27,454 bases of DNA, from positions 1-27,454 of the IMG/VR virus record IMGVR_UViG_3300028027_000191; one strand, written 5' to 3'. Of the stretch, positions 1 through 27,296 are shown in pieces. The notes under the pieces were generated by a model. That model was not told the origin of the DNA. It did not search any database and worked only from the letters and a program-made list of their open reading frames with translations. The stretch comes from a virus. Positions within the stretch are counted from its first letter, which is position 1, and the number at the start of each line of letters is the position of its first letter. A program made the position numbers and the translations under genes.

Positions 1-233
1 ACCAATCAACCTTTGAGGTGATAAGGTTTGAAGAAGAAGAAAAGGAAAGGATTGAGATTGAAAGCAGTGTGGCATGTGCAGCATCATCAATTCATTGGTA
101 CAAGTTCAAACTACTTGAAATGTATGCAGAACTAGGCACCTACCAATCAGTGAGTGATGCAACAGGTATTCCATTAACATCAGTGTTTCAGACAATATCT
201 GAGGCACGAAAAGAAATAAAACAAAAACTATGA
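1..233 (+). CDS. Partial HTH (sigma-region-4-like) protein
   Basis: The reading frame is open to the left edge (first full codon at 3), so the gene probably begins outside the window; a GTG at 18 is only a fallback start. The visible C-terminal part has an acidic stretch (EEEEKERIEIE), then a helical region starting at HWYKFKLLEMYAELGTY and a helix-turn-helix-like segment (YQSVSDATGIPLTSVFQTI). This resembles the small sigma-region-4-like or terminase-adjacent HTH proteins of Bacteroidota phages. It overlaps the next start by 4 nt (ATGA) and lies just before the terminase genes. A role as a late regulator or packaging accessory is inference; DNA binding is likely. Confidence 0.6.
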   Translation, partial: QSTFEVIRFEEEEKERIEIESSVACAASSIHWYKFKLLEMYAELGTYQSVSDATGIPLTSVFQTISEARKEIKQKL

Positions 234-478: not shown

Positions 479-962
479 CGATGAAGAACTTTCTACTGAC
501 AAACAAGAAATATTTTGTCAAGAGTACATTGTTGACTTAAATGCAACCAATGCGGCAATCCGTGCTGGTTATTCTCCAAAAACAGCTTATTCGATAGCTA
601 GTAGGCTATTGAGGAATGTTAAGATTCGCGCCCGCGTAACGGAATTGATGGATGAAAGGAGTAAAAGAACCTTAGTTGATGCAGATTTTGTTGTAAGAAA
701 CCTATTAGACATTACGGCAAAGTGTCAGCAGAAAGTACCTGTGATGGAATGGAATGCAGAAAATAAGTGCATGGAGCAAAAGACCGATGAAGAAGGTAAA
801 GCTATTTGGGAGTTTGATAGTAGCGGAGCAAATAAAGCACTAGAGTTACTTGGTAGGCATTTAGCAATGTTTACCGATAAGGCGAAGATTACAACCATGG
901 TTGAACAGCCATTGTTCGAGAAAAAAGCAAAAGATGTTTCAGAGAACCACAGCCATAGATAA
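459..962 (+). CDS. Terminase small subunit
   Basis: This 167-residue protein would recognise the packaging site on phage DNA and recruit the large subunit. Residues 12-52 (STDKQEIFCQEYIVDLNATN followed by AAIRAGYSPKTAYSIASRLL) match the DNA-binding N-terminal region of the Terminase_2 family: a K/Q-x-x-F-x-x-EY helix and then NA-x-x-A-x-R-AGYS, an HTH. The C-terminal half is charged and helical, as expected for oligomerisation. Its end overlaps the large subunit by 29 nt in another frame. The start at 459 is the only ATG ahead of the HTH. Length and position next to the large subunit fit the family. Confidence 0.88.
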   Translation: MAKVQSNDEELSTDKQEIFCQEYIVDLNATNAAIRAGYSPKTAYSIASRLLRNVKIRARVTELMDERSKRTLVDADFVVRNLLDITAKCQQKVPVMEWNAENKCMEQKTDEEGKAIWEFDSSGANKALELLGRHLAMFTDKAKITTMVEQPLFEKKAKDVSENHSHR

Positions 963-2136
963 ACTACTTGCAATCCAATGCAGGAAGAAAGTTATCCAGG
1001 GCGGAACGTGGGCAGGTAAAACATACGGCATCATCCCCTGCATCATTGACTACGCAGCAAAGAACACCAATAAGACCTGCACAATCGTAGCAGAAACAAT
1101 CCCAGCTTTAAAAGGTGGTGCAATCAAAGATTTCAAAAACATAATGAGAGATACCGGGCGGTGGGTAGATAGCCGATGGAATGCAAGTGATCTTCACTAC
1201 ACATTTGGCACGAACACCAAAGTAGAGTTCAAATCATTCGATTCAGTAGGTAAGGCACAGGCAGCAGGTAAACGTGATGTGCTGTTCATCAATGAGGCAC
1301 CATACGTTCAATATGAGATAGCCGATGCACTGATAGGTAGAACAACAGAAGATATTTGGATTGACTTCAACCCAACATCAGAGTTTTGGGCGCACACCGA
1401 GATACTACCCAATAAAGATGCGGAGTTCCTTTTGCTGAAATACACCGACAACGAAGCACTACCATCAACCATCCTGGATGAGTTAATGATGAAGCTAGAT
1501 AAAGCCTATCACAACCCAGCAATGGGTAACGTGGCAGGGAATATCAAATCAAGCTATTGGGCAAATTGGTGCAAGGTTTATGTAGATGGAGAGATTGGCA
1601 GCTTGCAGGGTACGGTGTTTCAGTTCACCCAATGTGGGCAGATACCTTTGGAGGCTGAACTATTGGCATATGGGATAGATTGGGGGTTCACTAATGACCC
1701 GACCACTTTGGTGGCTATGTACCGGATAAACAAAACATTGTACCTAGAAGAATTGATATTTCAAACGGGGATGAGAAACGTGGATATTGCAACCAAGATG
1801 AATGAGTTGGGTATCAGTAAGCAGGTGCCAATCTATTGCGATGATGCAGAACCCAAGAGTATTGCCGACCTCAATAGTTTAGGGTATGGTAACGCACAAC
1901 GAGCGTATAAGGATAGGATAAATACGAGCATTGACCTATTGCAGGGGTATGAGTTGCAGGTGCTATCTTCCTCACTCAACATGGTAAAGGAGTTTAGGAA
2001 CTACCGATGGGAGACGGATGCCTCCGGTAAGTCCACCAACAAACCAATCAAATCATTCAACCACACTATTGACCCGTTGAGATACATTGCCACCAATACT
2101 TTAATCGGGGCAACGGGAGAATATTATCTGATGTAG
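934..2136 (+). CDS. Terminase large subunit
   Basis: This 400-residue protein is the ATPase-nuclease motor that packages and cuts DNA. From the ATG at 934, the Walker A motif is GGTWAGKT (23-30) and the Walker B-like strand is VLFINEA (116-122). The C-terminal RNase H-like nuclease has GIDWGF (D249), YCDDAEP (D303/D304) and HTIDPLRY (D380) as likely metal-binding acidic residues. The layout matches PBSX/Terminase_3-type large subunits, and the length is normal. The open frame extends to a TTG at 901, but the ATG at 934 places a normal distance before Walker A and is preferred. The next gene follows after 31 nt that hold the first copy of the conserved start motif. Confidence 0.93.
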   Translation: MFQRTTAIDKLLAIQCRKKVIQGGTWAGKTYGIIPCIIDYAAKNTNKTCTIVAETIPALKGGAIKDFKNIMRDTGRWVDSRWNASDLHYTFGTNTKVEFKSFDSVGKAQAAGKRDVLFINEAPYVQYEIADALIGRTTEDIWIDFNPTSEFWAHTEILPNKDAEFLLLKYTDNEALPSTILDELMMKLDKAYHNPAMGNVAGNIKSSYWANWCKVYVDGEIGSLQGTVFQFTQCGQIPLEAELLAYGIDWGFTNDPTTLVAMYRINKTLYLEELIFQTGMRNVDIATKMNELGISKQVPIYCDDAEPKSIADLNSLGYGNAQRAYKDRINTSIDLLQGYELQVLSSSLNMVKEFRNYRWETDASGKSTNKPIKSFNHTIDPLRYIATNTLIGATGEYYLM

Positions 2137-2170
2137 AAAAATATCTGCATTTATTGCCACTATAGGTATG
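2134..2170 (+). promoter_or_regulatory. Conserved start-proximal element, copy 1
   Basis: The 34 nt before the ATG at 2168 align without gaps to the sequences before the starts at 8701 and 11768. The core (2155-2170) reads TTGCCACTATAGGTATG counting one base upstream. An AAAA block sits about 27-30 nt before the ATG. The element fills the whole gap after the terminase stop. The CACTATAG segment equals the 3' half of T7-type promoters, but no phage RNA polymerase gene is visible here. Confidence 0.6.
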
Positions 2171-2830
2171 ACGGTGGCACAATACCAAAAAGTTTACGAG
2201 ATTAATAACACCACACCCGATACCATCGAGCGTATGGGGTGGATCATTTGCGCACTATACGGTAAGACCTACGACCAGGTTAACCGTATGACCTCATTGG
2301 CGTTTATGGTTTACGTTAGCAGGATTGAACGTGCGCTCACAGCAACCCCAAAATGGTGGCAACCTAGATGGCATTTCCAAACCGATGCCACCAAGATAAC
2401 CCTAGGGCAATTCATTGAATGTCAACATTGGCTGAAGAATGACAGCGTGCAGGTGCTTGACCTTGTGGCTGCATCTATTCTCAAAGTCCGTGGCAACCAT
2501 GCCCAAGATGTACTGATGATTCAATCTGCACCATTCAACCAAGTTTTACCAGCAGTAACCGAGTTTGTCGATAGTATGAACAAGTTGGTACTCAGCTACA
2601 AAGGTTTATTTGAGCAAGAGCCGGAGATGGATGAAAACGATATGCCTGTGGTTAAAGAATCCGTACACCCATTCATTGACCAATACGGTTGGATATTCTC
2701 AGCAACAGAGGTGGCAAGGCATGAAGGTATTACGCTGGATGCTGCAATGGATTTACCCGTTATGCAAGCGTTCAACGCTATGGCATATCTGAAAAGTAAG
2801 GCACAATACGAAAAACTAAAAATGTCATAA
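2168..2830 (+). CDS. Tail assembly chaperone-like protein (tentative)
   Basis: This 220-residue soluble protein begins two bases after the conserved start element. Its middle (RWHFQTDATKITLGQFIECQ and what follows) and its end (W-x-FSATEVARHEGITLDAAMDL then PVMQAFNAMAYLKSKAQYEK) look like the alpha-helical proteins found near tape measure genes in Bacteroidota phages and resemble tail assembly chaperones. The family is recalled from pattern only, so the role is uncertain. It heads the tail block. No frameshift extension is visible: the short ORF at 2610-2792 in another frame lies wholly inside the gene. It could instead be a head-tail accessory protein. Confidence 0.62.
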   Translation: MTVAQYQKVYEINNTTPDTIERMGWIICALYGKTYDQVNRMTSLAFMVYVSRIERALTATPKWWQPRWHFQTDATKITLGQFIECQHWLKNDSVQVLDLVAASILKVRGNHAQDVLMIQSAPFNQVLPAVTEFVDSMNKLVLSYKGLFEQEPEMDENDMPVVKESVHPFIDQYGWIFSATEVARHEGITLDAAMDLPVMQAFNAMAYLKSKAQYEKLKMS

Positions 2831-2831
2831 T

Positions 2832-2921
2832 ATGAAAACGACCCAAGAAAAACTGATGCCGTGGATATTTATTGCAGTAGCGGCCACTGCTTTTGTAATC
2901 ATCTTACTAGCATCATTGTAA
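2832..2921 (+). CDS. 29-residue single-span membrane peptide
   Basis: A short ORF fills exactly the gap between its neighbours: its ATG is one base after the previous stop, and its TAA is directly followed by the next ATG (TAAATG). The peptide starts MKTTQEKLMPW and continues as one hydrophobic helix (IFIAVAATAFVIILLASL) to the end, so it should be an N-in or C-in single-span inner-membrane peptide. The exact tiling and the clean transmembrane helix argue that it is translated. Its function is unknown; it is not in the lysis cassette. Confidence 0.6.
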   Translation: MKTTQEKLMPWIFIAVAATAFVIILLASL

Positions 2922-3581
2922 ATGCCAAAAAGAACCATTACATCAGCATCCAACAAAGCTGCCACATCGGGGTTCCTTGATTTATTGGGGGCAGAGCAGA
3001 GTGATTTTGAAGCGGTAAAGTTAGACACCATTGCCGATTCAATGGAGTATGTGGCAGCGGTGTACACTGAGAAGCTGAACGAGCAGCTACGTTTAAAGGA
3101 TGCAGATAGTAGTGGGGATTTGGCAAAGAGTATTGTTGCCCTCGATGTGGTGATATTGGGTACAGTTTACACGGTTGAGATAGAATCGTTAAGGTATGCC
3201 TCTTACATAGATGAGGGTGTTGACGGTTGGGCAAACAGCAGGGGTTCACAATTCAAGTTCAAGAAGTCAACCCGTAAACGTGGCGAACCATTCACGGGTA
3301 AAAGTGCCTTTGTTGAAAGTTTAAAGAAATACCTAGGCCGTGAAAAAAAGGTTGGCAGATTAACCAAGAAAGTACAGATAAGTGATAGAGAGCGTAAAAG
3401 AGCCAAAATAACGGATGCAAGCACAAAGGCAGCTATCGGTGCAGCCTACATGATTAAAAGGCAAGGTATAGCTCCCACGCACTTTTGGAGGGATGCTACA
3501 AAGCAAATGGATGAGATAATCAAAAAGGAGTTCAGCGCAGCCTTGAAGATTGACATTATAAACAATTTAACGAATAACTAG
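2922..3581 (+). CDS. HK97 gp10-like tail completion protein
   Basis: This 219-residue protein fits the HK97-gp10/tail-completion type. It has an N-terminal helix, a beta region with SLRYASYIDEGVDGW and RGSQFKFKKS (the family's typical Y-x-x-YID-G-x-x-G pattern followed by a basic loop), and a C-terminal helix (HFWRDATKQMDEIIKKEF). Such proteins sit at the head-tail joint or tail end. It abuts the previous peptide and the next gene with no gap (TAGATG at 3579-3584), so translational coupling is likely. It is somewhat longer than the shortest gp10 proteins because of the basic middle segment. The exact position in the virion is inferred. Confidence 0.65.
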   Translation: MPKRTITSASNKAATSGFLDLLGAEQSDFEAVKLDTIADSMEYVAAVYTEKLNEQLRLKDADSSGDLAKSIVALDVVILGTVYTVEIESLRYASYIDEGVDGWANSRGSQFKFKKSTRKRGEPFTGKSAFVESLKKYLGREKKVGRLTKKVQISDRERKRAKITDASTKAAIGAAYMIKRQGIAPTHFWRDATKQMDEIIKKEFSAALKIDIINNLTNN

Positions 3582-4685
3582 ATGACAGCTAACAGCACAC
3601 CCCCAACCTATGCCAGCGTTAACGGGCCACTTGTGTGGGTTTTTTACGATGCCAATAGTATCAACCCTGCTTTTTTAGATTACAAGTATGTGGGTGAGGT
3701 ATGGGTAGATGGGGTGAAAGTTTATACAGAGAGAGCCTACCCAAGACCAGGGGGTTCATTTGGTATATTTGATTTCTCTGCCATCATCCGGAATTATGTT
3801 GTTCCCGTTTATCTCCCAGCAGCAGGGGTGGTTGCTCAACAATTAGGTTCAGCAGTATTCAGAACACCCGATGTAGTTATCAAAGTGCGTGAAGATTACA
3901 ACGGTGCAACCGGGGCGGTAGTGCTAACAGATAGCGCACGGATATTCTACAACAACTACAACGATAGGAATGAAGGGGTGACGGGTATTGCTACCCTTAT
4001 CAATAAGCCGCTGACGGTTAGGGATAGAACAATAAACCTCACCCGAAGCTGCACCAAGTATTTCATCCCATACTTTGCTACATCAACCACACCTTACAAC
4101 GTGGTTATCAACGGCACAACCACAGCGGTAACACCATCAGCAGCCAACACCTGCCAGATGATAAACATTGCACCAATAGGGTTGAGCAGTTCTGTTGAAT
4201 CATATGTGGTAAGTATCAATGCCCAAGTGTACAACGTGAACATCGTATGCGATGGTTTATACACCAACTACTACCTGCACTTTCTGAACAAGTACGGTGC
4301 CTTTGAATCAATGCTGTTCAACAAGGTAAGGAAGCGATCATTTGAAACCAAGCGTAAAGAATACCAACAGCCACAATTTAGGGTGAGCAATTCGGGGGTG
4401 GTTAGCCTCGGAACTACAGCAGCACTCCATGAGCAGCGGACACAGTTTGCAGGGGAGTTCACCGAAAGGCTACGCATCCAAACAGACCTTTTAACAGATA
4501 CCGAATGGCAATGGCTGTCACAGGTGGTGAATAGTCCGATGGCATACCTTGAAGATGCTGGAACGGTTTACCCTATTGTTATCGGCAACAACAACTATGA
4601 GTTTAAAGAATACGTGGTTGATAAGTTAAACACCCTGCAATTAGATATTCAATTTGGCAGTCAAATAAACACACAATACCGATGA
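3582..4685 (+). CDS. Tail protein, beta-rich (tail tip or distal tail)
   Basis: This 367-residue protein appears mainly beta-structured: its N-terminus (LVWVFYDANSINPAFLDYKY, VWVDGVKVYTERAYP) reads like an immunoglobulin or fibronectin-like fold, and its C-terminal part (LLTDTEWQWLSQVVNSPMAY and then NNNYEFKEYVVDKLNTLQLD) looks like a domain seen in Bacteroidota phage tail proteins. There is no signal peptide. It overlaps the next gene by 4 nt (ATGA), indicating paired synthesis, and both lie before the tape measure gene. I recognise the type but not a named family; a tail-tip or baseplate role is inference from context. Confidence 0.6.
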   Translation: MTANSTPPTYASVNGPLVWVFYDANSINPAFLDYKYVGEVWVDGVKVYTERAYPRPGGSFGIFDFSAIIRNYVVPVYLPAAGVVAQQLGSAVFRTPDVVIKVREDYNGATGAVVLTDSARIFYNNYNDRNEGVTGIATLINKPLTVRDRTINLTRSCTKYFIPYFATSTTPYNVVINGTTTAVTPSAANTCQMINIAPIGLSSSVESYVVSINAQVYNVNIVCDGLYTNYYLHFLNKYGAFESMLFNKVRKRSFETKRKEYQQPQFRVSNSGVVSLGTTAALHEQRTQFAGEFTERLRIQTDLLTDTEWQWLSQVVNSPMAYLEDAGTVYPIVIGNNNYEFKEYVVDKLNTLQLDIQFGSQINTQYR

Positions 4686-6736
4686 TAGAGGCTTTCATAG
4701 AGAAACAACCCGTTGATATTAATGAGGTATTCAGTACGCTGATAACCTATGCCATTGATGATGTGAAGGACTTTGGGGCAAAGAACACTGCCTTCAGTAA
4801 AACATTGGTGCTGCCTGGCACAAAGAACAATAACGAACTATTCGGTAATGTGTTTCAGATTAGCCGTTCAACGCAGTACAACCCTGCTGTTCCAAACTTC
4901 GGTATCAACTTCAATGCAGCGGTAGGTGCAGACATTATAGTGTTCGCTGATAACACGCAGGTATTCAAGGGAATACTTAGGTTACTTGAAATAACGGTAG
5001 ATAAAAACGTGGTTGAATATGAGGTGGCCATGTTTGGTGTGTTTGGTGGGTTCATTGCCAAGATGGGGAATAATAAACTAGAGGCATTGGATTTCAGTGC
5101 CTACAACCACACATACACAGTGGGGGCAATATCGGGATCATGGAATACTGCCAACGCTGGGGCAGGGTATTACTACCCATTAATGGACTACGGCACATAT
5201 AGCACAGCAAAAAAGAATTGGCAATACGGTACGTTTAGACCTGCATTGTATGTGAAGGAATACATTGACAAGATATTCGCAGCAGCAGGGTACAGTTATG
5301 ATTGTGCGCTGTTTAATACATCAAGGTTTAAATCGTTGATTGTTCCACATACCCAAAAGAAACTGCAATCATTTACAACTACCCTGGGCAGCGGTAATTT
5401 AATTGCACCGTATGTGGTGATTGATGATACCATCCCTAGAGATGTTGGACTTGCAAAGTTCGACAACTACACCGCTGGGTTATTTACTGCCAACGCAGGG
5501 TTCAATGTGTTCACCTTTACGGGTGCAACGGGTGCAGCGGTAAACATATCAGTTAGCTTAGAAGGTGAGTACGAGTGTACCCCGGAAGATATTTTGATTT
5601 ACCTTATTGTGGACGGTATTAATGTGCGGATTGATAGACTACCTGCTACCGGAACATCAGCTTTTAGCTTATCCTACACCGAGCAGGTAACGGTAACCAC
5701 AAGTGATGTGGTAACGATTAACATTCAATCTGAGTTCGCAAATCCTACATACAAGTTGACAATGAACACCGCATCAATCGGGTTTGAATCATTGGTGCCT
5801 GTATTAAACCCCATCAGCATTGGTGGCAATGTTACTATCAACGATGTGATTCCAAAGAACATCCTGCAAAAAGACTTCCTCAGCAGCATCTTAAAGCTGT
5901 TCAACCTTTATGTGTTCGATGATAAGGAAAACGATAAACTACTCAACATCGAACCCTTTGTAGATTTCTATGCTAACGCTGACCGGATAGATTGGACTAA
6001 CAAGATAGACCGTTCAAAGCCGATGCGGATAAAACCTATGAGTGAGTTAAACAGCAGGTACTTTGAATTTAACTACAAGGATGATTCCGACTATTGGAAT
6101 GACCTGTACAAAAAACGGTACAATGAAACGTACAACTCATTCAAGTTCGACAGTCAATTTGAGTTTGCCAAAGAGGTGCAAAAGGTTGAGTTGATATTCA
6201 GTCCAACACCATTGGTGGGTTATGTAGGTGAGGAGAAAGTATATTCAACTGTGTTCAAAAGAACCGGAGAGGTTACAGGGGTGGGTGAGGAGAATATGGA
6301 TTTCAATATCCGAATACTACAGGCAAAGAAAATCCTAGGCGTGACAAGTTGGAACGTGTTGGATGGTGCAAGCGTGTTGGGTTCATACACTGCATACGGG
6401 TACGCTGGGCATTTAGACGATCCGGATGCCCCGACCAATGATATTGGCTTTGGTGTACCCAAAGAACTATTCTTTGTGCTTACATCGGGTGCGCTCAATA
6501 TCAATCAATTCAATGTTTATTACTCAACCTACATGGCAGAAATAACCGATAGGGATAGCAGACTATTGGAGGGTACATTTAGGTTAACCCGTAAGGACAT
6601 AGCGGAACTTGATTTCTCTAAACTTATTTACGTGGATGGTTCGCTGTTTAGGTTGAACAAGATCATGGACTACAACGCAACAAAAGAAGATACCTGCAAG
6701 GTGCAATTATTAAAAGTCATCAATACAATATACTAA
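4682..6736 (+). CDS. Tail-tip / baseplate hub-like protein
   Basis: This 684-residue protein has an N-terminal region common to Bacteroidota phage tail proteins (IDDVKDFGAKNTAFSKTLVL then PGTKNNNELFGNVF), a long beta-rich middle, and a segment with DFLSSILKLFNLYVFDDKEN and DWTNKIDRSKPMRIKPM, typical of hub-type proteins. It ends 1 nt before the tape measure start. The gene pair 3582/4682 probably forms the distal tail complex that touches the tape measure tip. No enzyme motif is visible. The order tip proteins then tape measure is reversed from lambda-like phages, where tip proteins follow the tape measure. A specific hub assignment would need structural comparison. Confidence 0.62.
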   Translation: MIEAFIEKQPVDINEVFSTLITYAIDDVKDFGAKNTAFSKTLVLPGTKNNNELFGNVFQISRSTQYNPAVPNFGINFNAAVGADIIVFADNTQVFKGILRLLEITVDKNVVEYEVAMFGVFGGFIAKMGNNKLEALDFSAYNHTYTVGAISGSWNTANAGAGYYYPLMDYGTYSTAKKNWQYGTFRPALYVKEYIDKIFAAAGYSYDCALFNTSRFKSLIVPHTQKKLQSFTTTLGSGNLIAPYVVIDDTIPRDVGLAKFDNYTAGLFTANAGFNVFTFTGATGAAVNISVSLEGEYECTPEDILIYLIVDGINVRIDRLPATGTSAFSLSYTEQVTVTTSDVVTINIQSEFANPTYKLTMNTASIGFESLVPVLNPISIGGNVTINDVIPKNILQKDFLSSILKLFNLYVFDDKENDKLLNIEPFVDFYANADRIDWTNKIDRSKPMRIKPMSELNSRYFEFNYKDDSDYWNDLYKKRYNETYNSFKFDSQFEFAKEVQKVELIFSPTPLVGYVGEEKVYSTVFKRTGEVTGVGEENMDFNIRILQAKKILGVTSWNVLDGASVLGSYTAYGYAGHLDDPDAPTNDIGFGVPKELFFVLTSGALNINQFNVYYSTYMAEITDRDSRLLEGTFRLTRKDIAELDFSKLIYVDGSLFRLNKIMDYNATKEDTCKVQLLKVINTIY

Positions 6737-6737
6737 C

Positions 6738-8666
6738 ATGTCAGATGTAGAAATAAAAGGTAGAATATCGGTAGACACCGGAGAGGCAGCAAAAAAGTTG
6801 GCTGACTTAAACAAGGTCATTGCTGAACAAAAGAAAGTTTGGAAAGATTCAGCAATCGGAAGTGATGAGTATAAGACTGCTCAAGAAAAGCTAAAAAATG
6901 CCACTACGGAGTATAACAGTATTTTAAAAGAAAATCAGCAGCAACAATCCAAAAGTGCAGGGGCATTTGGATTGCTCAAAGAAAAGGTGGGTGCCATATC
7001 CCCAGCCATGGGTGGAGCAATACAAGGAACGCAGGGGTTGGGTACTGCATTCAAGGCACTACTTGCCAACCCGGTTGGTTTGGTGTTACTTGCCATTGTC
7101 GGAGCATTAAAGCTGTTGTATGAGTGGTTTGCCAATTCCTTTGCAGGTGGGCAGAAGTTAGAGCAGATGTTTGCTGGGTTACAAGCAGCAGGGCAGGCAT
7201 TAATGGATAACCTGGGGCGTGTTGCCTCAGCCATCAAAAAGGTGTTTACCCTAGACTTCAGTGGTGCAAGGGCAGAGATTAAAGGGGTGGCCGATGCTGC
7301 AACCGATGCGTACAACAAGATGGCAAAGCTGACCAAAGAAAAGCAGCAGCTAGATAGAGACCAAGCAGACAATGATTTGGAGAGTGCAAAGAGGCAGCAG
7401 TTACTTGCAGACCTTAAAGAAAAGTTGGCAGACGGTGATGTGCCTATTGCAGAAAAGAAGAAAGCACAAAAGGAGTTGCTGGCAATGAGTGAGGCGAATG
7501 CAGCGGAGGACATAAAACTTGCAAAAGCTATTGCCGACAATAAGATTGCACAACTCACTCTGCAAAAGGATGGTGAGAAAAAAAACTATGTTGAGATACA
7601 GAAAATTAAGGCCGACCAGATAAGGGTTGAAACTGAAAATGATAGGGAACTAAAGCAGATTAGAAAGGCAGGTAATACCTTAAACAAAGAAGAAGATGCA
7701 CAACGAAAAGCACTGCATGATGCTGACATGGCACGTAGAAAAGAGGCTGCCCAAAAAAATAAGGAATACCACGAAGAACAGAAAAGACTTGCAGCAGAAA
7801 AACTTGCACTCGATAAAAGACTAGCGGAAGCGAAGAAAAAGTCGGATGAAGAAATGATAAAAGGCATTGAGGAAGAAGGGGAGAGAATGAGGAAGGCAGA
7901 AGAAGATAACGAGAAGAAGCGTTTGAAAACGATTGAGGATAACGAGCGTTTCAGACTTAGTCAAAAAAAGAAATATGCAGAACTCGATGCACTAAACAAC
8001 CCGGACAGTATTGAGTACAAGGTTGCAAAGATTAAAGCTGATTTGGATATAGAACTATTTGCATTAGCAGAAGGAGATGTTCAAAGGCAGATACTTGCAA
8101 AGAAAGCGAGTGATGCTATTATCGCTATTCAGAAGGATGAAACTGATAAGAAAAAGCAAATGCAAGATGCTGAACTACAGGCAAAACTACAATTTGCAGC
8201 AGCTATAGGCAATGTGTTTAGTGGCTTATCTGGTTTATTTAAAAAAGGAACAGCAGCAGCCAAGGTTGCTGGACTTGCAGAGATAGCCATTGGCACAGGC
8301 ATTGGGTTCATCAACGGTTTAGATATTGCCCAAAAAGGAGCAAAAGCAACAGGGCCAGCAGCACCTTTTGCATTCCCAATATTTTATGCCACACAAATTG
8401 CAGCAGTGTTAGCAGCAGCAGCAAGGGCAAAATCTATCTTCAGTAGTGTTGAAGGTGGTAGCGGTGGAGGTAGTGCAACAGCACCATCTATCCCATCTGC
8501 ACCGTTAGGGCCACAATCAAGTTCAACCTCACTCGATGCAGCTAGTATTCAAGGGATAGGCAACGCAGCAGCAGGGGGAATCAACAGAACCTTTGTGCTG
8601 GATTCAGATGTCAACGATGGCCAAGAAAGACAAGCGAGAATATCAAGGGCAGCACGTTTGGGTTAA
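6738..8666 (+). CDS. Tail tape measure protein
   Basis: This 642-residue protein sets tail length and is ejected with the DNA. Evidence: a helical N-terminus (VSDTGEAAKK-like heptads), a hydrophobic segment at about 108-132 (ALLANPVGLVLLAIVGALKL), a long highly charged coiled coil from about 180 to 470 rich in K, E, A and Q, and a second small-residue hydrophobic region at about 485-570 (AEIAIGTGIGFINGLDIAQK; FYATQIAAVLAAAARAKS). A Gly/Ser/Pro-rich tail follows. This is the classic tape measure pattern. At about 1.5 angstrom per residue it predicts a tail near 95 nm. The 34-nt element after the stop leads to the head genes. Confidence 0.9.
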   Translation: MSDVEIKGRISVDTGEAAKKLADLNKVIAEQKKVWKDSAIGSDEYKTAQEKLKNATTEYNSILKENQQQQSKSAGAFGLLKEKVGAISPAMGGAIQGTQGLGTAFKALLANPVGLVLLAIVGALKLLYEWFANSFAGGQKLEQMFAGLQAAGQALMDNLGRVASAIKKVFTLDFSGARAEIKGVADAATDAYNKMAKLTKEKQQLDRDQADNDLESAKRQQLLADLKEKLADGDVPIAEKKKAQKELLAMSEANAAEDIKLAKAIADNKIAQLTLQKDGEKKNYVEIQKIKADQIRVETENDRELKQIRKAGNTLNKEEDAQRKALHDADMARRKEAAQKNKEYHEEQKRLAAEKLALDKRLAEAKKKSDEEMIKGIEEEGERMRKAEEDNEKKRLKTIEDNERFRLSQKKKYAELDALNNPDSIEYKVAKIKADLDIELFALAEGDVQRQILAKKASDAIIAIQKDETDKKKQMQDAELQAKLQFAAAIGNVFSGLSGLFKKGTAAAKVAGLAEIAIGTGIGFINGLDIAQKGAKATGPAAPFAFPIFYATQIAAVLAAAARAKSIFSSVEGGSGGGSATAPSIPSAPLGPQSSSTSLDAASIQGIGNAAAGGINRTFVLDSDVNDGQERQARISRAARLG

Positions 8667-8703
8667 ACGGAAAATAACACGGTTTCCTGCCACTACAGAT
8701 ATG
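8667..8703 (+). promoter_or_regulatory. Conserved start-proximal element, copy 2
   Basis: The 34 nt between the tape measure stop (8664-8666) and the ATG at 8701 align without gaps to copies 1 and 3. The core at 8688-8703 reads TGCCACTACAGATATG and differs from copy 3 at one base. The element exactly fills the intergenic gap, which supports 8701 as the true start of the protease. Confidence 0.6.
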
Positions 8704-9309
8704 CAAAAGCTGCCACTGTACGAAATGAGTATCAAGGATGAGACCGAAAGCGAGGTAGAAGTATCTGCCATCGCTTTGGTTGATAGTCCTGCAATAGAGA
8801 AAGCATTCTATGCCTTCGATGAAAATACCAACCCCCTTGCATTCTCCCAAATAAAGGAGGATGAATATTTGATTGTAGGGCCGGCCATGATTCCCGATAT
8901 GAAGATTTACCGGAATGATCCCGACTTTGGGGAGTACCAGGTATTCTTCTCAAAAGAAACCGTAGTAAAGATTGCCGAGAAGTTCTACAAAAAGGCATTC
9001 CAATCCAACGTAAACCTCATGCACAACTCCGAACAGATGGTGGAGGGTGTGACCTACTTTCTTTCTTTCATCAGAGATTCAGCAAAGGGCATGGTTGGTC
9101 TTGCAGGTGATTACCCGGAAGGCACATGGTTTGTAGGTGCCAGGGTGCAGAACCCTGCTGTATGGGAAAAGATTAAATCGGGTGAGATTACAGGGTTTTC
9201 AGTAGAGGGTGTGTTTGAATATTACAAACCAAACAAGGAAGAAACTGCACCCGTGGATACTGATGATGAACTGCTGGCAAAAATAAAAGAATTGCTAAAC
9301 GGAAAATAA
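8701..9309 (+). CDS. Capsid maturation protease, XkdF-like
   Basis: This 202-residue protein matches the XkdF-like putative serine protease family (Peptidase_S78_2). Visible family features are the N-terminus MQKLPLYEMSI, ISxVD-like AIALVDSPAIEKAF, VGPAMIPDMKIYRNDPDFGE then YQVFFSKETV, VNLMHNSEQM (catalytic His candidate), PEGTWFVGARVQNPAVWEKI and SGEITGFSVEGVFEYY (Ser candidate). It would process scaffold and capsid during prohead maturation. An upstream frame to 8593 exists, but 8701 gives the canonical family N-terminus and follows the conserved element without overlapping the tape measure. It heads the head block: scaffold and capsid genes follow. Confidence 0.82.
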   Translation: MQKLPLYEMSIKDETESEVEVSAIALVDSPAIEKAFYAFDENTNPLAFSQIKEDEYLIVGPAMIPDMKIYRNDPDFGEYQVFFSKETVVKIAEKFYKKAFQSNVNLMHNSEQMVEGVTYFLSFIRDSAKGMVGLAGDYPEGTWFVGARVQNPAVWEKIKSGEITGFSVEGVFEYYKPNKEETAPVDTDDELLAKIKELLNGK

Positions 9310-9349
9310 ACGCATAAACGTACACTTTCATACATACAACACTAATCAC

Positions 9350-9862
9350 ATGAGCAATAGCAAAGATATTATTACAGGAATCAAGAAGTTATTATTTGGC
9401 GAAATGCCAACAGAAACCGTAGCACCTGCACCTGTTGCACCTGCTGAAGAAAAGATGGAAAAGGAATACACGCTTGAAGATGGTGTTACCATTGTGAGCA
9501 TTGACAAGTTAGAAGTAGGCGGTACAGTTACATTGAGTGGCTCACCTGCACCCGATGCAGTACACACTTTGCAAGATGGCACAAAGGTTACAACCGTAGC
9601 TGGAATCATCACCGAGGTAAAGCCGATTGAAGTATTGGCAGAAGAACCACAGAAAGCAGAAGAAGTTGCATACAAGATGCCAACTGAAATGGCTGCACGC
9701 ATTGAGAAATTAGAGGCTGCACTTGCAAAGCAAAGCGATGCATTTGCACAGTTATTCCCTCTCATTGAAAAGATGGCAGAGGTAGAAGTAGAGGCACCTG
9801 TTGAGAACCAAAAGAGTTGGGAAGAAATGACCGCACTTGAAAGATTCAGAGCAACAAAATAA
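9350..9862 (+). CDS. Scaffold protein candidate
   Basis: This 170-residue acidic protein lies between protease and capsid, the usual place for a scaffold. Its order is an N-terminal helix (SKDIITGIKKLLFGE), an Ala/Pro linker (TETVAPAPVAPAEEK), two short beta repeats of the type LEDGVTIVSIDKLEVGGTV and LQDGTKVTTVAGIITEV, then a coiled coil (TEMAARIEKLEAALAKQSDA) and a basic end (TALERFRATK). Similar DG-repeat plus coiled-coil proteins occur at this place in Bacteroidota phages. No enzyme motif is seen. It could also be a decoration-associated protein; scaffold is the better guess because of the coiled coil and gene order. Confidence 0.65.
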   Translation: MSNSKDIITGIKKLLFGEMPTETVAPAPVAPAEEKMEKEYTLEDGVTIVSIDKLEVGGTVTLSGSPAPDAVHTLQDGTKVTTVAGIITEVKPIEVLAEEPQKAEEVAYKMPTEMAARIEKLEAALAKQSDAFAQLFPLIEKMAEVEVEAPVENQKSWEEMTALERFRATK

Positions 9863-9868
9863 GTAAAC

Positions 9869-10054
9869 ATGGCATTGAAAATAAAAGAAGGTTCAAAGAT
9901 TGTTGCCTATGGTGCATCAAACGAATCCTTCACAAGTTCATCAAAATTAACGCAAGATGTATTGGTTCACCTTCAGACAAGGTTTCCAAATGATGTTGTG
10001 AGTGATGCACCCGAAAAGCCGTTATTAAAACAAGAAAAGCAAAAAGTAAAATAA
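9869..10054 (+). CDS. Small hypothetical protein before capsid gene
   Basis: This 61-residue basic protein follows the scaffold candidate after 6 nt and precedes the capsid gene by 20 nt. Its N-terminal half may form a small beta unit (LKIKEGSKIVAYGASNESFT), and it ends in a lysine-rich tail (KPLLKQEKQKVK). Similar small genes occur between scaffold and capsid in Bacteroidota phages, but I know of no defined function. A role in head assembly is inferred only from place. Confidence 0.6.
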   Translation: MALKIKEGSKIVAYGASNESFTSSSKLTQDVLVHLQTRFPNDVVSDAPEKPLLKQEKQKVK

Positions 10055-10074
10055 AAATTTAAAAACCACAAACA

Positions 10075-11100
10075 ATGGCAATATCTTATAACGTAGTAGA
10101 CATCCGTGGCGTAGCAGCGGAACCAATCATTGAAGAACTAATCTTTGACAACGCAACCGTTTCAGAAGGGTTGGTTACTTTGGAAACCGATGTAAAGGCA
10201 GAAACAATCTTCACAGAAACCACCGCAGGTGTTACCATGCAGGCTTACACCGCAGGCGCACCTTCTTCTTCTGGTACTTTGGGTGCTTTTGATGTAACTG
10301 TTACCCCTACAAAGGTTCAGTACTACCAAGAGTTTGATCCAAACTCTTTGCGTTTCTCTCGTTTTAAAAGGGATTTGAAGCCAAGTGCATGGAATGTATT
10401 AAGTACAGAATTTGAGCGTGTGGTGATTGGTGGTTTGTATTCTCGCAAAATCTCTGCAAACGTAGAATCTTTATTCTGGAACAACGCATTGGCAGGTACA
10501 AAAACAGCCGTTGCAGCACTTGTTGCAGGATTGCCACAGGGTTCAGTAGGTGCAGCAGAGAAAACTTTGGTTGCTGCTACTACAGCAGGTTTGTTCGATG
10601 GTATCATCACTAAATTAATCTACAACAATTCAAATGCAACTGCAACCCCAGGGTTGGGTGGTCGTGTGAAAGTAGCAGGTACAACCATCACCTCATCAAA
10701 CATCAAAGCTGAGTATGATAAAGTGTACGAAGCTATCCCAGCAGTAGTGTTGGCAGATGGTGGTGAGGCTCCTTTCATCTACGCTCCACGTAGCCACAAG
10801 CAGTTAATAAACATCTTCAACAACAACGTAGCAAATTTCAAAGATGCGTTCAGCGTGAATGATGCAAAAACACAATACTTCTTTAACGGTATCGAAATCA
10901 AGTTCGTTCCGATTCCAGAGAACGTGATTGTTGCTGCTCGTAAATCTCACCTTTTCTTTTGCACTGATTTGGCCTCTGACATCAACAAGATGGAGATCAA
11001 CAAGATTGCAAACAACCGTGAAGATATGTTCATTAAGAACAACATGACCATCGCTGCGCACGTAGGCAACCAAGCATACAATGTGTTGTACGTAGGATAA
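10075..11100 (+). CDS. Major capsid protein (HK97-fold type)
   Basis: This 341-residue protein has the expected length and place of the head shell subunit. An N-terminal segment (MAISYNVVDIRGVAAEPIIE) is followed by beta-rich Thr/Ala-rich stretches (AETIFTETTAGVTMQAYTAG) and a long helix region (SRFKRDLKPSAWNVLSTEFE) that resembles the spine helix of Bacteroidota phage capsid proteins; the C-terminus (NNREDMFIKNNMTIAAHVGN, then QAYNVLYVG) is typical. Codon choice is tidy and highly regular, as expected for a highly expressed gene. A strong hairpin terminator follows 11 nt after the stop. Confidence 0.85.
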   Translation: MAISYNVVDIRGVAAEPIIEELIFDNATVSEGLVTLETDVKAETIFTETTAGVTMQAYTAGAPSSSGTLGAFDVTVTPTKVQYYQEFDPNSLRFSRFKRDLKPSAWNVLSTEFERVVIGGLYSRKISANVESLFWNNALAGTKTAVAALVAGLPQGSVGAAEKTLVAATTAGLFDGIITKLIYNNSNATATPGLGGRVKVAGTTITSSNIKAEYDKVYEAIPAVVLADGGEAPFIYAPRSHKQLINIFNNNVANFKDAFSVNDAKTQYFFNGIEIKFVPIPENVIVAARKSHLFFCTDLASDINKMEINKIANNREDMFIKNNMTIAAHVGNQAYNVLYVG

Positions 11101-11110
11101 GAAACAAATT

Positions 11111-11138
11111 AAGGGTAGTACTTCGGTGCTACCCTTTC
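11111..11138 (+). terminator. UUCG-capped hairpin after capsid gene
   Basis: A 10-bp stem (AGGGTAGTAC with GTGCTACCCT, one G-U pair) closes on a TTCG tetraloop with the stabilising C-G closing pair, then CTTTC. It lies 11 nt after the capsid stop. The T-run is short, so it may attenuate rather than end transcription, or protect the capsid mRNA 3' end. Confidence 0.75.
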
Positions 11139-11157
11139 ATAAATAAAATTTAATACT

Positions 11158-11676
11158 ATGCCGTGTGTACTCACCCAAGGCTACAACCTAGATTGTAGGG
11201 ATTCTTTTGGCGGTTTGAAAGAGGTTTATGTAATGGAGCATGCCAATGGTGTCGTTACCCAAGCTGCTGGAATCGTTACAGGAATCGTAAAGACAGCAAC
11301 AAAGAAGTTTTTCAAATACAAATTGATTGCCCATACCGGAGAAGCTGATGAGGCTTTCACTCCTAGCAGAGAGAATGGCACTACAATGAGCAAGCAGTCG
11401 GTTAAATTCCCAATAAACAAAATGACCGTTGCAGTTCGCAATGAGTTGCTGTTGTTGGCTCAGAATCGTTTGCTGATTGTTATTGTTGACCAGAATGGTA
11501 CAGGGTGGTTGTATGGTGCTGACTTCGGAATGATGCTAGCACCATCAACTGCAAAGACCGGGAAAGTTTTGGCAGACAGAAATGGTTATGAATTAGGATT
11601 TGAAAGTGATGAGAAGTTCCTCGCACCTTCAGTAGATGCAGCGACCTTGCTGACCTTAGAAACCCCAGGCGTTTAG
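11158..11676 (+). CDS. Probable major tail (tube) protein
   Basis: This 172-residue protein has a pattern common right after the capsid gene in Bacteroidota phages: an N-terminal CVLTQGYNLDCRDSFGGLKE, a beta-rich core (FFKYKLIAHTGEADEAFTPS, VKFPINKMTVAVRNELLLLA) and GWLYGADFGMMLAPSTAKTG near the end. The fold looks like tail tube proteins (repeated beta strands with one helix). It is bracketed by two hairpin terminators, suggesting a separately tuned, abundant transcript as expected for a tube subunit. The tail-tube role is inference; an alternative is a head decoration protein. Confidence 0.6.
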   Translation: MPCVLTQGYNLDCRDSFGGLKEVYVMEHANGVVTQAAGIVTGIVKTATKKFFKYKLIAHTGEADEAFTPSRENGTTMSKQSVKFPINKMTVAVRNELLLLAQNRLLIVIVDQNGTGWLYGADFGMMLAPSTAKTGKVLADRNGYELGFESDEKFLAPSVDAATLLTLETPGV

Positions 11677-11698
11677 TTTTGGTAAATAATAAAAGAAA

Positions 11699-11727
11699 GG
11701 CCTCACAGAAATGTGAGGCTTTTTTTA
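11699..11727 (+). terminator. Rho-independent terminator after tube gene
   Basis: A perfect 8-bp stem (GCCTCACA with TGTGAGGC) closes on a GAAA tetraloop and is followed by seven T. The A-run before it makes a bidirectional function possible. It ends the capsid/tube unit, and the third copy of the conserved start element begins 7 nt later. Confidence 0.9.
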
Positions 11728-11733
11728 TGTGTT

Positions 11734-11770
11734 TCTGAAAAAAGAATGAATTACTGCCACTATAGATATG
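11734..11770 (+). promoter_or_regulatory. Conserved start-proximal element, copy 3
   Basis: The 34 nt before the ATG at 11768 align without gaps with the copies before 2168 and 8701. The core at 11755-11770 is TGCCACTATAGATATG, and an A-run sits about 25-30 nt before the ATG. It directly follows a strong terminator, which fits transcription restart here. Similarity to the 3' half of a T7-type promoter (CACTATAG) is noted, without proof. Confidence 0.62.
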
Positions 11771-12148
11771 TTACTGTTAAACCAAGGAGATACAACGGGT
11801 AGAATAGTTTGCACACTTACTGAAAAGGTAACGATTGCAGAACCGTTTTATGTGTTTGTATTTACCCACGTAACAACCAAAGCAGTGGTACAATGGGTGC
11901 AAACTTTCGGAAACGATACAAGTCCATCACCGGAGAGATACAACGAGTTTTTAATACCACTCAGTTTATTCACTAACAAGGCCACAGGGCAATATACATA
12001 CAATGTTTTTCAGAGTGCAGTGGTAAACCCTGCAACAACGGTGGGTTTAACCCTACTTGAAAACGGCAAAATGCTGCTGGAAAAATCCAGCGGTGTAACA
12101 CTAACGGGTCACAACCCATCAGCAACATACACAGGATATGCAGGATAA
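11768..12148 (+). CDS. Hypothetical protein before portal, beta-rich
   Basis: This 126-residue protein starts two bases after the third conserved element. It seems to be a single beta domain (TEKVTIAEPFYVFVFTHVTT; YNEFLIPLSLFTNKATGQYT; LLENGKMLLEKSSGVTLTG) with no signal peptide. Its last 11 nt overlap the portal start, so the two are co-translated. I recognise the general type as a Bacteroidota phage protein found with head genes, without a known function. A virion surface or head-decoration role is a guess. Confidence 0.6.
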   Translation: MLLLNQGDTTGRIVCTLTEKVTIAEPFYVFVFTHVTTKAVVQWVQTFGNDTSPSPERYNEFLIPLSLFTNKATGQYTYNVFQSAVVNPATTVGLTLLENGKMLLEKSSGVTLTGHNPSATYTGYAG

Positions 12149-14189
12149 TTTAATTACCATAGCTTTTGCGGATGTAAAAATTCCCGACTTCAAAGAGCAG
12201 CCAGGCGAAAAGGTTGTGATGTTTGGAGAGGATAATAAGTACCCCGACTATTTGATAATGCTCCTCAACAAGAGTGCAAAGCATAACAGCATTATCAATT
12301 CCAAAGTAAACTACATATTCGGTAACGGGTTGAAGGCAGAGGTAGAAGATGAAACGGCCATGGCCTTTATTAAGAAAAATACAAAGCTGATAAAGAAGAT
12401 CACCCATGACAAAGAAGCATTTGGGATGGGGTATATTCAGTGCATTCCTAAAAGGGATGGCAAGACATGGGGATTCCATCATCTGTCCTACAATCGGATG
12501 CGTTCCAATGTAGCCAACACTTACTTTGAATATCGTAAAGATTGGCAGAAGAAATGGGATGGTAAAGCAAAGTGCTGGCCAGCGTTTGACCCTTCAAAGA
12601 GGGTAACATCGGTTTTGATGTTCAAAGAATACAGAGCAGGGTTAGAAACCTACAGCCTACCATCATTTGTGGCAGCTTGTAACTACATAGAGGCAGACAT
12701 CGAAGTTTCTAAGCATACACTTACAAACGCTCAGTCTGGTTTTAGTGCATCGAAGTTCATCAACTTTTACAATGGTGAACCAGACGAAATGACAAAGCGC
12801 AGCATTGAGGCAAGATTTAAAAACAAGTTTGGCGGAGCATCGGGTGAGAAGATGATTATAGGTTTCAATAATGATCCTGCAAAGGCACCCACGGTTCAAG
12901 ATTTGGGAGCGAGTGATTTAACCAAAGAAGATTTCCAGCAGGTAGACAATTTGATTGCCAACAACATCTATGCAGGGCATCAGATTACAAATAGTTCCCT
13001 ATTTGGGATTCCATCTTACAACCATTCTCTAGGCGGTAACTCCGGTGCTGAATTGAAAATGGCATACGACATTTTCAAAAGCACGTATGTAGCGGTTAAG
13101 AAAAAGGAAATAGAAGATATTATCAACTTCATTGCAGTGTGTAACGGGGTTACCACTGAACTATCTCTCATTGATATTGAGCCTGTAGGTTACACGTTTA
13201 CAGAGGCAACCATTATGCAGACAGCACCAAGGCCATGGCTTTTGGAAAAGCTAGGTATTGATGAAACTAAGTATGAAAGCACGGTGACAAAGAACGCTGT
13301 TGTAAATGCCATCAACACCCTTTCACCTTTGGTGGCTAACAAGGTACTTGAGAAAATGACTCCCGATGAGATTAGATCCATTGTAGGATTAGGTGCAACA
13401 CCTGGGGGCAATGTTATTGAAACAGCCGCAACAAGTGGAGGAGAAACTGCACCGACTACAGCGGAGCCTATGCAAGATGGTTTGGTTAATGAGAATCTAA
13501 AGAACCTTACTGCAAAGCAAATGCAGCAGGTTAACCGCATTATTCGCCAACACAGTAAGGGGCAGATTACAGATGCCACAGCCATGTTATTACTTACCAA
13601 TGGTTTTGGATTGACAGAGGAACAAGCACGCACCATGTTAGGGTTAGACCAACCAGAGGCCGACCAATTCGGTAGTGATGATGATGTGGCAATGTTATTT
13701 GCTGCACATGGTGAGCCTGCTGATGATTACCAAGCATTTGAAAAAAGAACAGCAAAGTTCGTTGATGAGTACACAGACATCGAGGACAAGATTAAAATAT
13801 TAAGAGAGAAAAACCCAAAGGCAACCGCCAAGAGTATTGCCAAAACATTGAACGTAGAGGAAGCCATTGTGGAGGAATACATCACAGGCAGCACGGGTGG
13901 TACTATTGGCGGTGCTATTGCCAAGATTCCAAAGTTTGAGGTAAGGTATTCATACGAATTAAGGGCAGGAGTAAGCGGTGCTGAAGTGCTACCTACTACA
14001 CGCCCATTCTGTAAAAAACTATTGGCATTAAACCGCTTTTATACAAGGGCAGACATTCAGAAGATTTCTGCCTACTTAGGGTATGATGTGATGAAGCGCA
14101 GCGGTGGTTTTTGGAATAACAACGGAACCGTAGAATACCATTGCCGTCATGAGTTTTTTAGTCAAATCGTAGTAAAGAAAAAGAAATGA
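12138..14189 (+). CDS. Portal protein with C-terminal HTH-like and Cys/His extension
   Basis: This 683-residue protein forms the DNA entry ring of the head. Residues 27-65 (VVMFGEDNKYPDYLIMLLNK, then SAKHNSIINSKVNYIFGNG) are the hallmark of Bacteroidota portal proteins; about 1-420 form the portal core. The remainder is an extension: a helical part (QMQQVNRIIRQHSKGQITDA), a winged-HTH-like segment at 551-582 (KILREKNPKATAKSIAKTLN), and a C-terminal domain with R-x-FC (625) and H-C-R-H (668-671) that resembles a MuF-type minor head domain end. The gene overlaps its neighbours at both ends. It sits some 10 kb from terminase, while in many phages the two are adjacent. Confidence 0.85.
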   Translation: MQDNLITIAFADVKIPDFKEQPGEKVVMFGEDNKYPDYLIMLLNKSAKHNSIINSKVNYIFGNGLKAEVEDETAMAFIKKNTKLIKKITHDKEAFGMGYIQCIPKRDGKTWGFHHLSYNRMRSNVANTYFEYRKDWQKKWDGKAKCWPAFDPSKRVTSVLMFKEYRAGLETYSLPSFVAACNYIEADIEVSKHTLTNAQSGFSASKFINFYNGEPDEMTKRSIEARFKNKFGGASGEKMIIGFNNDPAKAPTVQDLGASDLTKEDFQQVDNLIANNIYAGHQITNSSLFGIPSYNHSLGGNSGAELKMAYDIFKSTYVAVKKKEIEDIINFIAVCNGVTTELSLIDIEPVGYTFTEATIMQTAPRPWLLEKLGIDETKYESTVTKNAVVNAINTLSPLVANKVLEKMTPDEIRSIVGLGATPGGNVIETAATSGGETAPTTAEPMQDGLVNENLKNLTAKQMQQVNRIIRQHSKGQITDATAMLLLTNGFGLTEEQARTMLGLDQPEADQFGSDDDVAMLFAAHGEPADDYQAFEKRTAKFVDEYTDIEDKIKILREKNPKATAKSIAKTLNVEEAIVEEYITGSTGGTIGGAIAKIPKFEVRYSYELRAGVSGAEVLPTTRPFCKKLLALNRFYTRADIQKISAYLGYDVMKRSGGFWNNNGTVEYHCRHEFFSQIVVKKKK

Positions 14190-14776
14190 GCAACGTAAAA
14201 TTATTGATACTACCATCGGTTATACAGGAGCGCATGAGCCTGCATACCAACGTGGATGAGAAGCTGATATTCCCCGAAATAAAGGCCGCCCAGGATATGT
14301 ACATCAGACCGTTATTAGGCTCTATTCTTTTTGATAAGATACTGAATGACATTGCTACCAACACCCTATCTGGTCAGTACCTAACATTGATGAACGACTT
14401 TATCATTGATGCACTATGCAACTATGTGATGAGTGAATTGCCGGAGGGGTTGAACTACCAATACTTTAACAAAGGGGTATCAACAAAAACAGCAGACCAA
14501 AGCCAATCACCATCCATGAGTGATATGTATGCCATCGTTTCAAAGTATAAGAAAAGGGCAGAGCATTATGCACAAAGGTGCCGACTGTATCTCGTTCAGA
14601 ACTATACATTGATTCCAGAGTATTACGCACCGGGGGGGATTGACAGAGTAATACCGGATCGTGCCTCTTTCAGTTCACCCATTTACTTGGGCAACAGAGG
14701 TGGGCAGGATGATTTCTTTAATAAGCCAAACCCGAATTACAATGAGCCTTATTATCCATTCAATTCAGATATATAA
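14186..14776 (+). CDS. Head-tail connector-like protein
   Basis: This 196-residue protein follows the portal with a 4-nt overlap (ATGA). A helical N-terminus (LILPSVIQERMSLHTNVDEK; IFPEIKAAQDMYIRPLLG), the GQYLTLMNDFIIDALCNYVM helix pair, and a Tyr/Pro/Asn-rich tail match the gp6-like connector type (DUF6712-like) found behind Bacteroidota portals. It probably binds the portal ring and closes the head. The C-terminal tail (NKPNPNYNEPYYPF) may bind a neighbour. Assignment rests on pattern and place. Confidence 0.65.
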   Translation: MSNVKLLILPSVIQERMSLHTNVDEKLIFPEIKAAQDMYIRPLLGSILFDKILNDIATNTLSGQYLTLMNDFIIDALCNYVMSELPEGLNYQYFNKGVSTKTADQSQSPSMSDMYAIVSKYKKRAEHYAQRCRLYLVQNYTLIPEYYAPGGIDRVIPDRASFSSPIYLGNRGGQDDFFNKPNPNYNEPYYPFNSDI

Positions 14777-25006: not shown

Positions 25007-25034
25007 AACCCTGCATTTCTATGTGGGGTTCTTT
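25007..25034 (+). terminator. Terminator of the late operon
   Basis: A 10-bp stem with two G-U pairs (AACCCTGCAT with ATGTGGGGTT) and a TTCT loop is followed by CTTTATTT. It lies between the last plus-strand late gene and the 3' end of the convergent integrase, whose stop codon it touches. On the minus strand there is no T-run after it, so it mainly acts on plus-strand transcripts. Confidence 0.7.
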
Positions 25035-27265: not shown

Positions 27266-27296
27266 TTTGACAGTTTAATATGCGCTTATATATTTG
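27266..27296 (+). promoter_or_regulatory. Bacteroidota-type promoter
   Basis: TTTG at 27266-27269 and TATATTTG at 27289-27296 match the Bacteroidota primary sigma consensus (TTTG and TAnnTTTG) with a 19-nt spacer. Start of transcription should fall near 27302, about 30 nt before the ATG at 27332. It is the only full host-type promoter I find in the window. Confidence 0.75.

Follow-up and report, generated by a model that had tools for sequence, protein, structure and literature searches.

Three genes in a 27,454-nt stretch of virus DNA, IMG/VR record IMGVR_UViG_3300028027_000191 (this whole stretch is called the window below), are each preceded by a short element that runs directly into the start codon. 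We consider that this element is probably a two-box promoter, used by the host core RNA polymerase with a phage-encoded sigma factor resembling those of the extracytoplasmic function (ECF) type, and that it drives the structural gene blocks from near-leaderless mRNAs. A phage-specific promoter giving near-leaderless mRNA had been one suggestion of the original prediction, which was made from the letters of the window. As far as sequence comparison goes, it is supported by the geometry of the element in related phages, by its position at the heads of gene blocks and by the presence of a sigma factor gene.

A two-box element at three start codons

A pattern search of the window, the single contig of this genome searched for copies, finds TGCCACTAYAGRTATG on the + strand at 2155-2170, 8688-8703 and 11755-11770 with zero mismatches. 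Each copy terminates in a start codon (at 2168, 8701 and 11768, respectively) and has an A-block about 13 nt upstream; no fourth copy is present in the window when up to 3 mismatches are allowed. The original prediction spoke of a 34-nt exact repeat. The three sites do lie at the ATGs that it gave, but only 18 of the 34 columns before the ATG are identical across all three copies, 11 of them among the last 13. It was right that the three genes head the tail, head and connector blocks. The first comes after the gene for the terminase large subunit (terL) and opens the tail genes, the second encodes an XkdF-type protease and precedes the capsid genes, and the third lies just before the portal gene.

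With its 18 identical columns, this set is the top triple among the 26 start sites of the window, while the null maxima were 16 columns in 300 trials with shuffled upstream sequences and 13 in 300 random placements. An unbiased best-pair test on the last 18 nt before all open reading frame (ORF) starts selects the sites at 2168 and 11768 with a score of 27.1; the null maximum is 20.1, and 0 of 100 nulls reach the score of the window. All three sites (37 nt each) are identical in a relative, L015, with 94.5% overall identity. An exact search of IMG/VR for TGCCACTAYAGRTATG returned 25 stretches, among which three copies occur only in this close relative. Each of the remaining stretches has a single copy in an unrelated context and is probably a chance match.

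The same position in related phages

The major capsid protein, used as a query against IMG/VR, identified 47 related loci, and a scan with the sigma protein added L128 and a large group, lineage F. Among the 47 capsid-related loci, the identical letters of the element are found only in the 94.5% identical contig (L015/L029). Of 19 distinct sequences upstream of the orthologue of the first tail-block gene, 17 nevertheless have a recognisable ATG-abutting element, and at least four styles of sequence occur among them. For example, L096 has CGTTATTAAGGTATG at the tail head, CGTTATAGTGGTATG at the protease gene and CGTTATATAAATATG at the portal gene (sites at 5527, 13105 and 15872), the three block heads known from the window. 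The pre-portal gene is headed by ACACTACATAGTATG in L032 and by CGCCACTACTTTTAAATG in L066; the former also stands at the protease gene of L032 and the latter at the tail head of L066. The element of L128 is GACACTTATAGGTATG, and the boxes of lineage F are CAACAAAC and TTGCCACA. The block-head sites of these five differ in sequence. The expectation of the original prediction that copies would stand before orthologous genes in relatives is thus borne out for position but not for sequence. At these block heads the relatives have a two-box element that abuts the ATG and is specific to their lineage. In L110, a copy of TGCCACTATAAA (about 14441-14452) does not abut the start codon and lies about 30-40 nt before the ATG at 14484; possibly it is a sigma site with a normal leader.

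The spacing within the element is best seen in lineage F, where CAACAAAC-N11-GCCAC is invariant in 13 distinct tail-head sequences and in additional sequences before the 126-aa pre-portal gene. GCCAC itself stands 7, 8 or 9 nt from the ATG. Constant distance to the start codon is what one would expect of a ribosome signal, and constant distance between boxes of a promoter. In lineage B, TTGATAC lies no more than 60 nt from a start in 15 cases, and in 14 of these its position is -34 or -35 relative to the ATG. The pattern [TA]TGATAC-N17/18-TT[AT][AT] lies 0-8 nt before an ORF ATG in 19 of 37 matches in this lineage, compared with 0 or 1 of 11-23 matches in shuffled DNA.

In several genomes the T-run of a preceding terminator stops a few bases ahead of the upstream box. 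The terminator hairpins at L035 4068-4101, L046 3029-3062 and L071 1393-1426 contain the upstream box, TTGATAC or TGATAC, in their loop, and in these three loci the terminator T-run doubles as the promoter spacer. Provided that those terminators work, the mRNA that follows could begin only at about the ATG.

A probable sigma factor gene upstream of terL

The original prediction had pointed to a sigma gene elsewhere in the genome as something to be sought, and one was found, cut by the left edge of the window. A complete copy of 184 aa is present in L015 at 684-1238. The Pfam family PF04542 (Sigma70 region 2) matches in 11 of 28 related contigs, in 6 of them above the family cut-off, and hidden Markov model (HMM) profiles tie the sigma of the window's clade to other phage sigma proteins. 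The complete L015 copy matches PHROG 1740 (RNA polymerase sigma factor) with an E-value of 3.7e-6. By tblastn, the sigma of this clade has no match among named phages.

The AlphaFold model of the L015 protein (predicted local distance difference test score, pLDDT, 71) has two helical domains, residues 3-79 and 119-183, joined by a disordered linker. Its top structural matches are sigma factors, mostly of the ECF type: sigma-E, sigma-L, sigma-H, AlgU and SigK. Region 4 of the model superposes on region 4 of sigma-E bound to -35 DNA at 1.7 A over 62 columns. As modelled, the protein has the composition that defines ECF factors, namely regions 2 and 4 only, without regions 1.1 and 3, in about 150-200 aa. 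The cut gene of the window most likely encodes an ECF-like sigma factor, if the predicted fold is taken as a guide. ECF promoters are characterised by an AAC in the -35 box and a short -10 box at fixed spacing. The AAC is present in lineage F, in the cultured Nonlabens phage P12024S and in the genomes G020 and G022; in the window it occurs in the upstream box of one of the three copies only (GGAAAATAAC). The spacing is fixed in lineage F.

The sigma gene is located upstream of terL in every contig in which both were detected, mostly within 1-3 kb. In G002 the two genes lie near opposite contig ends, which fits a circular map.

Seven sigma-bearing genomes beat all 100 nulls in the best-pair test, G002 among them with another repeat as its top pair. 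In L084 (relative G002), a different 21-nt repeat, TTAAAAAACCGACTGACTATG, stands on the reverse strand before the ORFs at 13066 and 13353, two nearby small genes. No sigma was found in the complete phage phi46:1 or in G006 and G013, all of which contain terL with ample flanking sequence, and none of the three has a shared ATG-abutting element (28-82 of 100 nulls reach the best score). G012, where the sigma was also not found, is not counted as sigma-less because its contig stops at the start of the gene that neighbours the sigma gene. The style of the downstream box tracks the sigma tree, with the CAC type in one supported clade and the GTTA type outside it; the tree has long branches and its deep joins are uncertain.

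The idea can be tested in P12024S, since this cultured phage carries both a sigma gene, upstream of terL (gp33, annotated 'Sigma-70 region 2'), and seven sites. These have the form AAAACAAA-N14-CGTTAATA-N4-ATG with small departures and stand at gp01, gp05, gp08, gp35, gp41, gp44 and gp45. The pattern A[AC]A[AC]A[AC]-N15..17-CGTTA[AC][TA] has six matches in this genome, all of them 4-5 nt before an annotated coding sequence, and zero matches elsewhere or on the other strand, with 0.42 expected. In the seventh site, at 23961, the spacing is off by one base.

Proposed mechanism

The sigma gene, just upstream of the terminase genes, would be read by the host sigma, in several relatives from a TAnnTTTG promoter. 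The phage sigma would then turn on the tail, head and portal/connector blocks. Relative to the ATG, the downstream box occupies about -13 to -4 and the upstream box about -35 to -26. Transcription would start on the A of the ATG or no more than one or two bases away from it, so that the late mRNAs would have no leader or almost none. This predicted start follows from the position of the phage boxes at about the same distance as the -12 to -5 of the host promoter: in Flavobacterium psychrophilum the primary-sigma box TAnnTTTG occupies positions -12 to -5 with respect to the transcription start (PMC9723704). It is our inference that this sigma recognises the boxes, that transcription starts precisely there and that it is late.

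In these phages TAnnTTTG boxes show an enrichment at positions -13/-12 relative to ATGs, and about half of these places are starts of sigma genes or sigma operons. In P12024S the operon with the sigma gene has the host box TATATTTG at its head, in positions -12 to -5 relative to the gp29 ATG. In L179 (19644), L096 (2795), L103, L108, L110, L115 and L126, the sigma gene or its operon likewise has a host-type TAnnTTTG box, about -13/-12 from its ATG. Since the box sits at this distance from its ATG, the sigma itself may come from a leaderless mRNA. The TAnnTTTG -7 box is absent at the three sites of the window, whose only + strand match with a TTG box is at 27267. A scan for E. coli-type sigma-70 promoters found no excess over shuffles.

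Several observations weigh against this mechanism. The window's own sigma is represented by 76 aa at the contig edge, the complete copy being known from a neighbour, and that L015 copy on its own scores under the Pfam cut-offs. The overall predicted template modelling score (pTM) of its AlphaFold model is low (0.39), and the linker is disordered. In the sigma-bearing genomes G007, G014, G019 and G025 no repeat is significant in the unbiased test, and they are left out of the support drawn from it. Some block heads of relatives lack the element, for example at the protease genes of L066 and of lineage F. Finally, no terminator lies ahead of the sites at 2168 and 8701, so read-through transcripts with leaders may also exist.

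Alternative explanations

The element could be read as a promoter in another way, by an alternative (ECF) sigma of the host or by the host RNA polymerase with a phage activator, with the phage sigma-like protein employed otherwise. Flavobacteria do have several ECF sigmas and a promoter class with a CGT box (PMC9723704), which resembles CGTTAATA of P12024S. However, the promoter style tracks the clade of the phage sigma, the element is absent from sigma-less relatives, and its sequences differ sharply among phages with similar structural genes, and we regard this explanation as unlikely. Slightly less credit is due to the other possibility left by the original prediction, that the element serves as a signal for translation initiation, through the context of the start codon or as a site for a protein or the ribosome, on mRNAs begun further upstream. 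Such a signal would suit an element that abuts the ATG in every case, in a phylum whose members, according to one report, are without Shine-Dalgarno sequences and rely on the context of the start codon (PMC6847099). But the box-to-box distance is constant while the box-to-ATG distance shifts by 1-2 nt, and there is a second conserved box about 30 nt upstream. Because of this fixed spacing, and because terminators end just before the upstream box or contain it, so that little mRNA would carry that box, a promoter fits better than a ribosome signal. The element is moreover confined to block-heading genes, and genomes without the sigma lack it.

The original prediction had also drawn a link to T7-type promoters, with a single-subunit phage RNA polymerase starting at the G of CACTATAG. 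This motif is present in two of the three copies, but the third has CACTACAG in its place. Relatives that carry the element at the corresponding genes are without CACTATAG, and the second box, about 28 nt before the supposed +1 G, lies outside a T7-type promoter, which spans -17 to +6 and ends in CACTATAG(GG). No such polymerase is found among the long ORFs of the window. A search for PF00940 found none in the 28 related contigs, which are partial sequences; its control was uninformative, as the control genomes are also without the family. The T7 resemblance is most probably a coincidence, and a promoter of this type is extremely improbable. Hardly any probability remains either for chance, or for a recent small duplication without function. 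Three copies only are present in the window, but they beat all nulls, they are unchanged in the 94.5% identical relative, and the position of the element is conserved where its sequence is not.

Genes and terminators around the sites

The features of the window that bear on the element are collected in Table 1. The hairpin ending at 11726 is the strongest terminator-like structure in the first 15 kb and ends 41 nt before the third ATG, in agreement with the original prediction that the third copy follows a strong terminator.

Table 1. Promoter-like elements of the window with adjacent genes and terminator
Feature	Position	Strand	Basis	Details
C-terminal 76 aa of putative ECF-like sigma factor	3..233	+	ORFs, HMM, PHROG 1740, predicted fold	region-4-like helix-turn-helix; cut by left end of contig
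Terminase large subunit (terL)	901..2136	+	family matches	between sigma gene and element 1
Promoter-like element 1, before tail-block gene	2134..2167	+	sequence alignment, orthologous sites	A-block (upstream box) 2136-2142; downstream box TGCCACTATAGGT 2155-2167; starts inside terL stop codon
First tail-block gene, 220 aa	2168..2830	+	ORF, orthologues	without family match
Promoter-like element 2, before head-block gene	8667..8700	+	sequence alignment, relatives	upstream box GGAAAATAAC 8669-8678; downstream box TGCCACTACAGAT 8688-8700
XkdF-type head protease	8701..9309	+	PF14550	first head-block gene
Intrinsic-terminator-like hairpin with T-run, strong	11693..11726	+	terminator scan	
Promoter-like element 3, before connector block	11734..11767	+	sequence alignment, relatives, best-pair test	upstream box GAAAAAAGAA 11737-11746; downstream box TGCCACTATAGAT 11755-11767
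First connector-block gene, 126 aa	11768..12148	+	ORF	overlaps start of portal gene; 126-aa orthologue likewise headed by an element
Portal protein	12138..14189	+	PHROG portal	

Another hairpin, GC-rich, lies at 11110-11136 directly 3' of the major capsid gene. It is present in nearly all relatives with varying sequence, and was seen upstream of the orthologous gene in about 30 of them. It may damp onward transcription, which would leave the capsid protein in excess. Near the end of the structural genes, 19997-21862 encodes a large protein that combines an RCC1-like region with PKD/Ig-like domains and may serve in receptor binding or decoration. A tyrosine integrase with Arm-DNA-bind_5 and SAM_5 domains is encoded at 25033-26130 on the - strand, so the phage is probably temperate. 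Replication genes were not seen in this contig. Scans of bacterial genomes with the capsid protein and with the sigma found no relative, and the host is therefore not named directly.

Relation to known systems

T4 gp55 reads only a -10-like box, TATAAATA, and needs the sliding clamp and gp33. In contrast, the phages studied here, Bacteroidota siphophages, would use an ECF-like two-domain sigma and a two-box promoter fused to the start codon. What they have in common with the T4 gp55 and SPO1 gp28 and gp34 systems is a phage-encoded sigma-like protein, as is also the case for gp33 of P12024S. Like phage late sigma systems, they have a shared motif before structural genes that is absent in sigma-less relatives. 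The T4 and SPO1 sigmas redirect the host RNA polymerase to phage promoters for later genes (PMC9429907). In its size, its predicted two-domain fold and its short downstream box, the system is similar to bacterial ECF sigmas (E. coli sigma-E, Mycobacterium tuberculosis sigma-L and the flavobacterial CGT -10 class). In several lineages the upstream box also contains an AAC (CAACAAAC, AAAACAAA, GTAACAAA). Unlike bacterial ECF sigmas, the protein is phage-borne beside the terminase genes, its putative targets are structural genes and its candidate promoters overlap start codons. The primary promoter of Bacteroidota (TTG / TAnnTTTG) is used before the sigma operon in several relatives but is absent from the three elements.

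The late promoters of phage phiKZ read TATG, with the start at the G (PMC5312081). These are also late phage promoters short enough to overlap start codons, but they consist of a single short motif and are served by a multisubunit phage polymerase without a sigma. The mRNA of lambda cI from PRM starts at the ATG. There a single regulatory gene is concerned, whereas here the starts would be those of the block heads of a structural regulon. Among host mRNAs, 5.5% are leaderless in F. psychrophilum (PMC9723704), and leaders shorter than 10 nt make up about 3.7% in Bacteroides thetaiotaomicron (PMC7366714).

In the literature searched, which covered few subscription papers so that an earlier description is possible, there was no account of an element of this kind, nor of late promoters for these phages. 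Phage sigmas for later gene classes are known, but an ECF-type, start-codon-fused version in Bacteroidota phages appears to be undescribed. We hold it moderately probable that a family of Bacteroidota siphophages makes its particle blocks as leaderless mRNAs from start-codon-fused promoters, which partly overlap the preceding terminator and are read with a phage ECF-like sigma, and that sigma and promoter sequences have changed together while the geometry at the ATG was kept.

If true, this would provide a late-transcription mechanism for a phage group that has none in the literature searched, and it would explain the scant room for a leader before the block-heading structural genes. It would also add compact pairs of sigma and promoter to the few genetic tools of the phylum. 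Since the sequence turns over while the position stays, these phages would form a natural series for the co-evolution of sigma and promoter. Moreover, as leaderless mRNAs are uncommon in the hosts, such a regulon would allow a direct test of how efficiently Bacteroidota translate leaderless messages.

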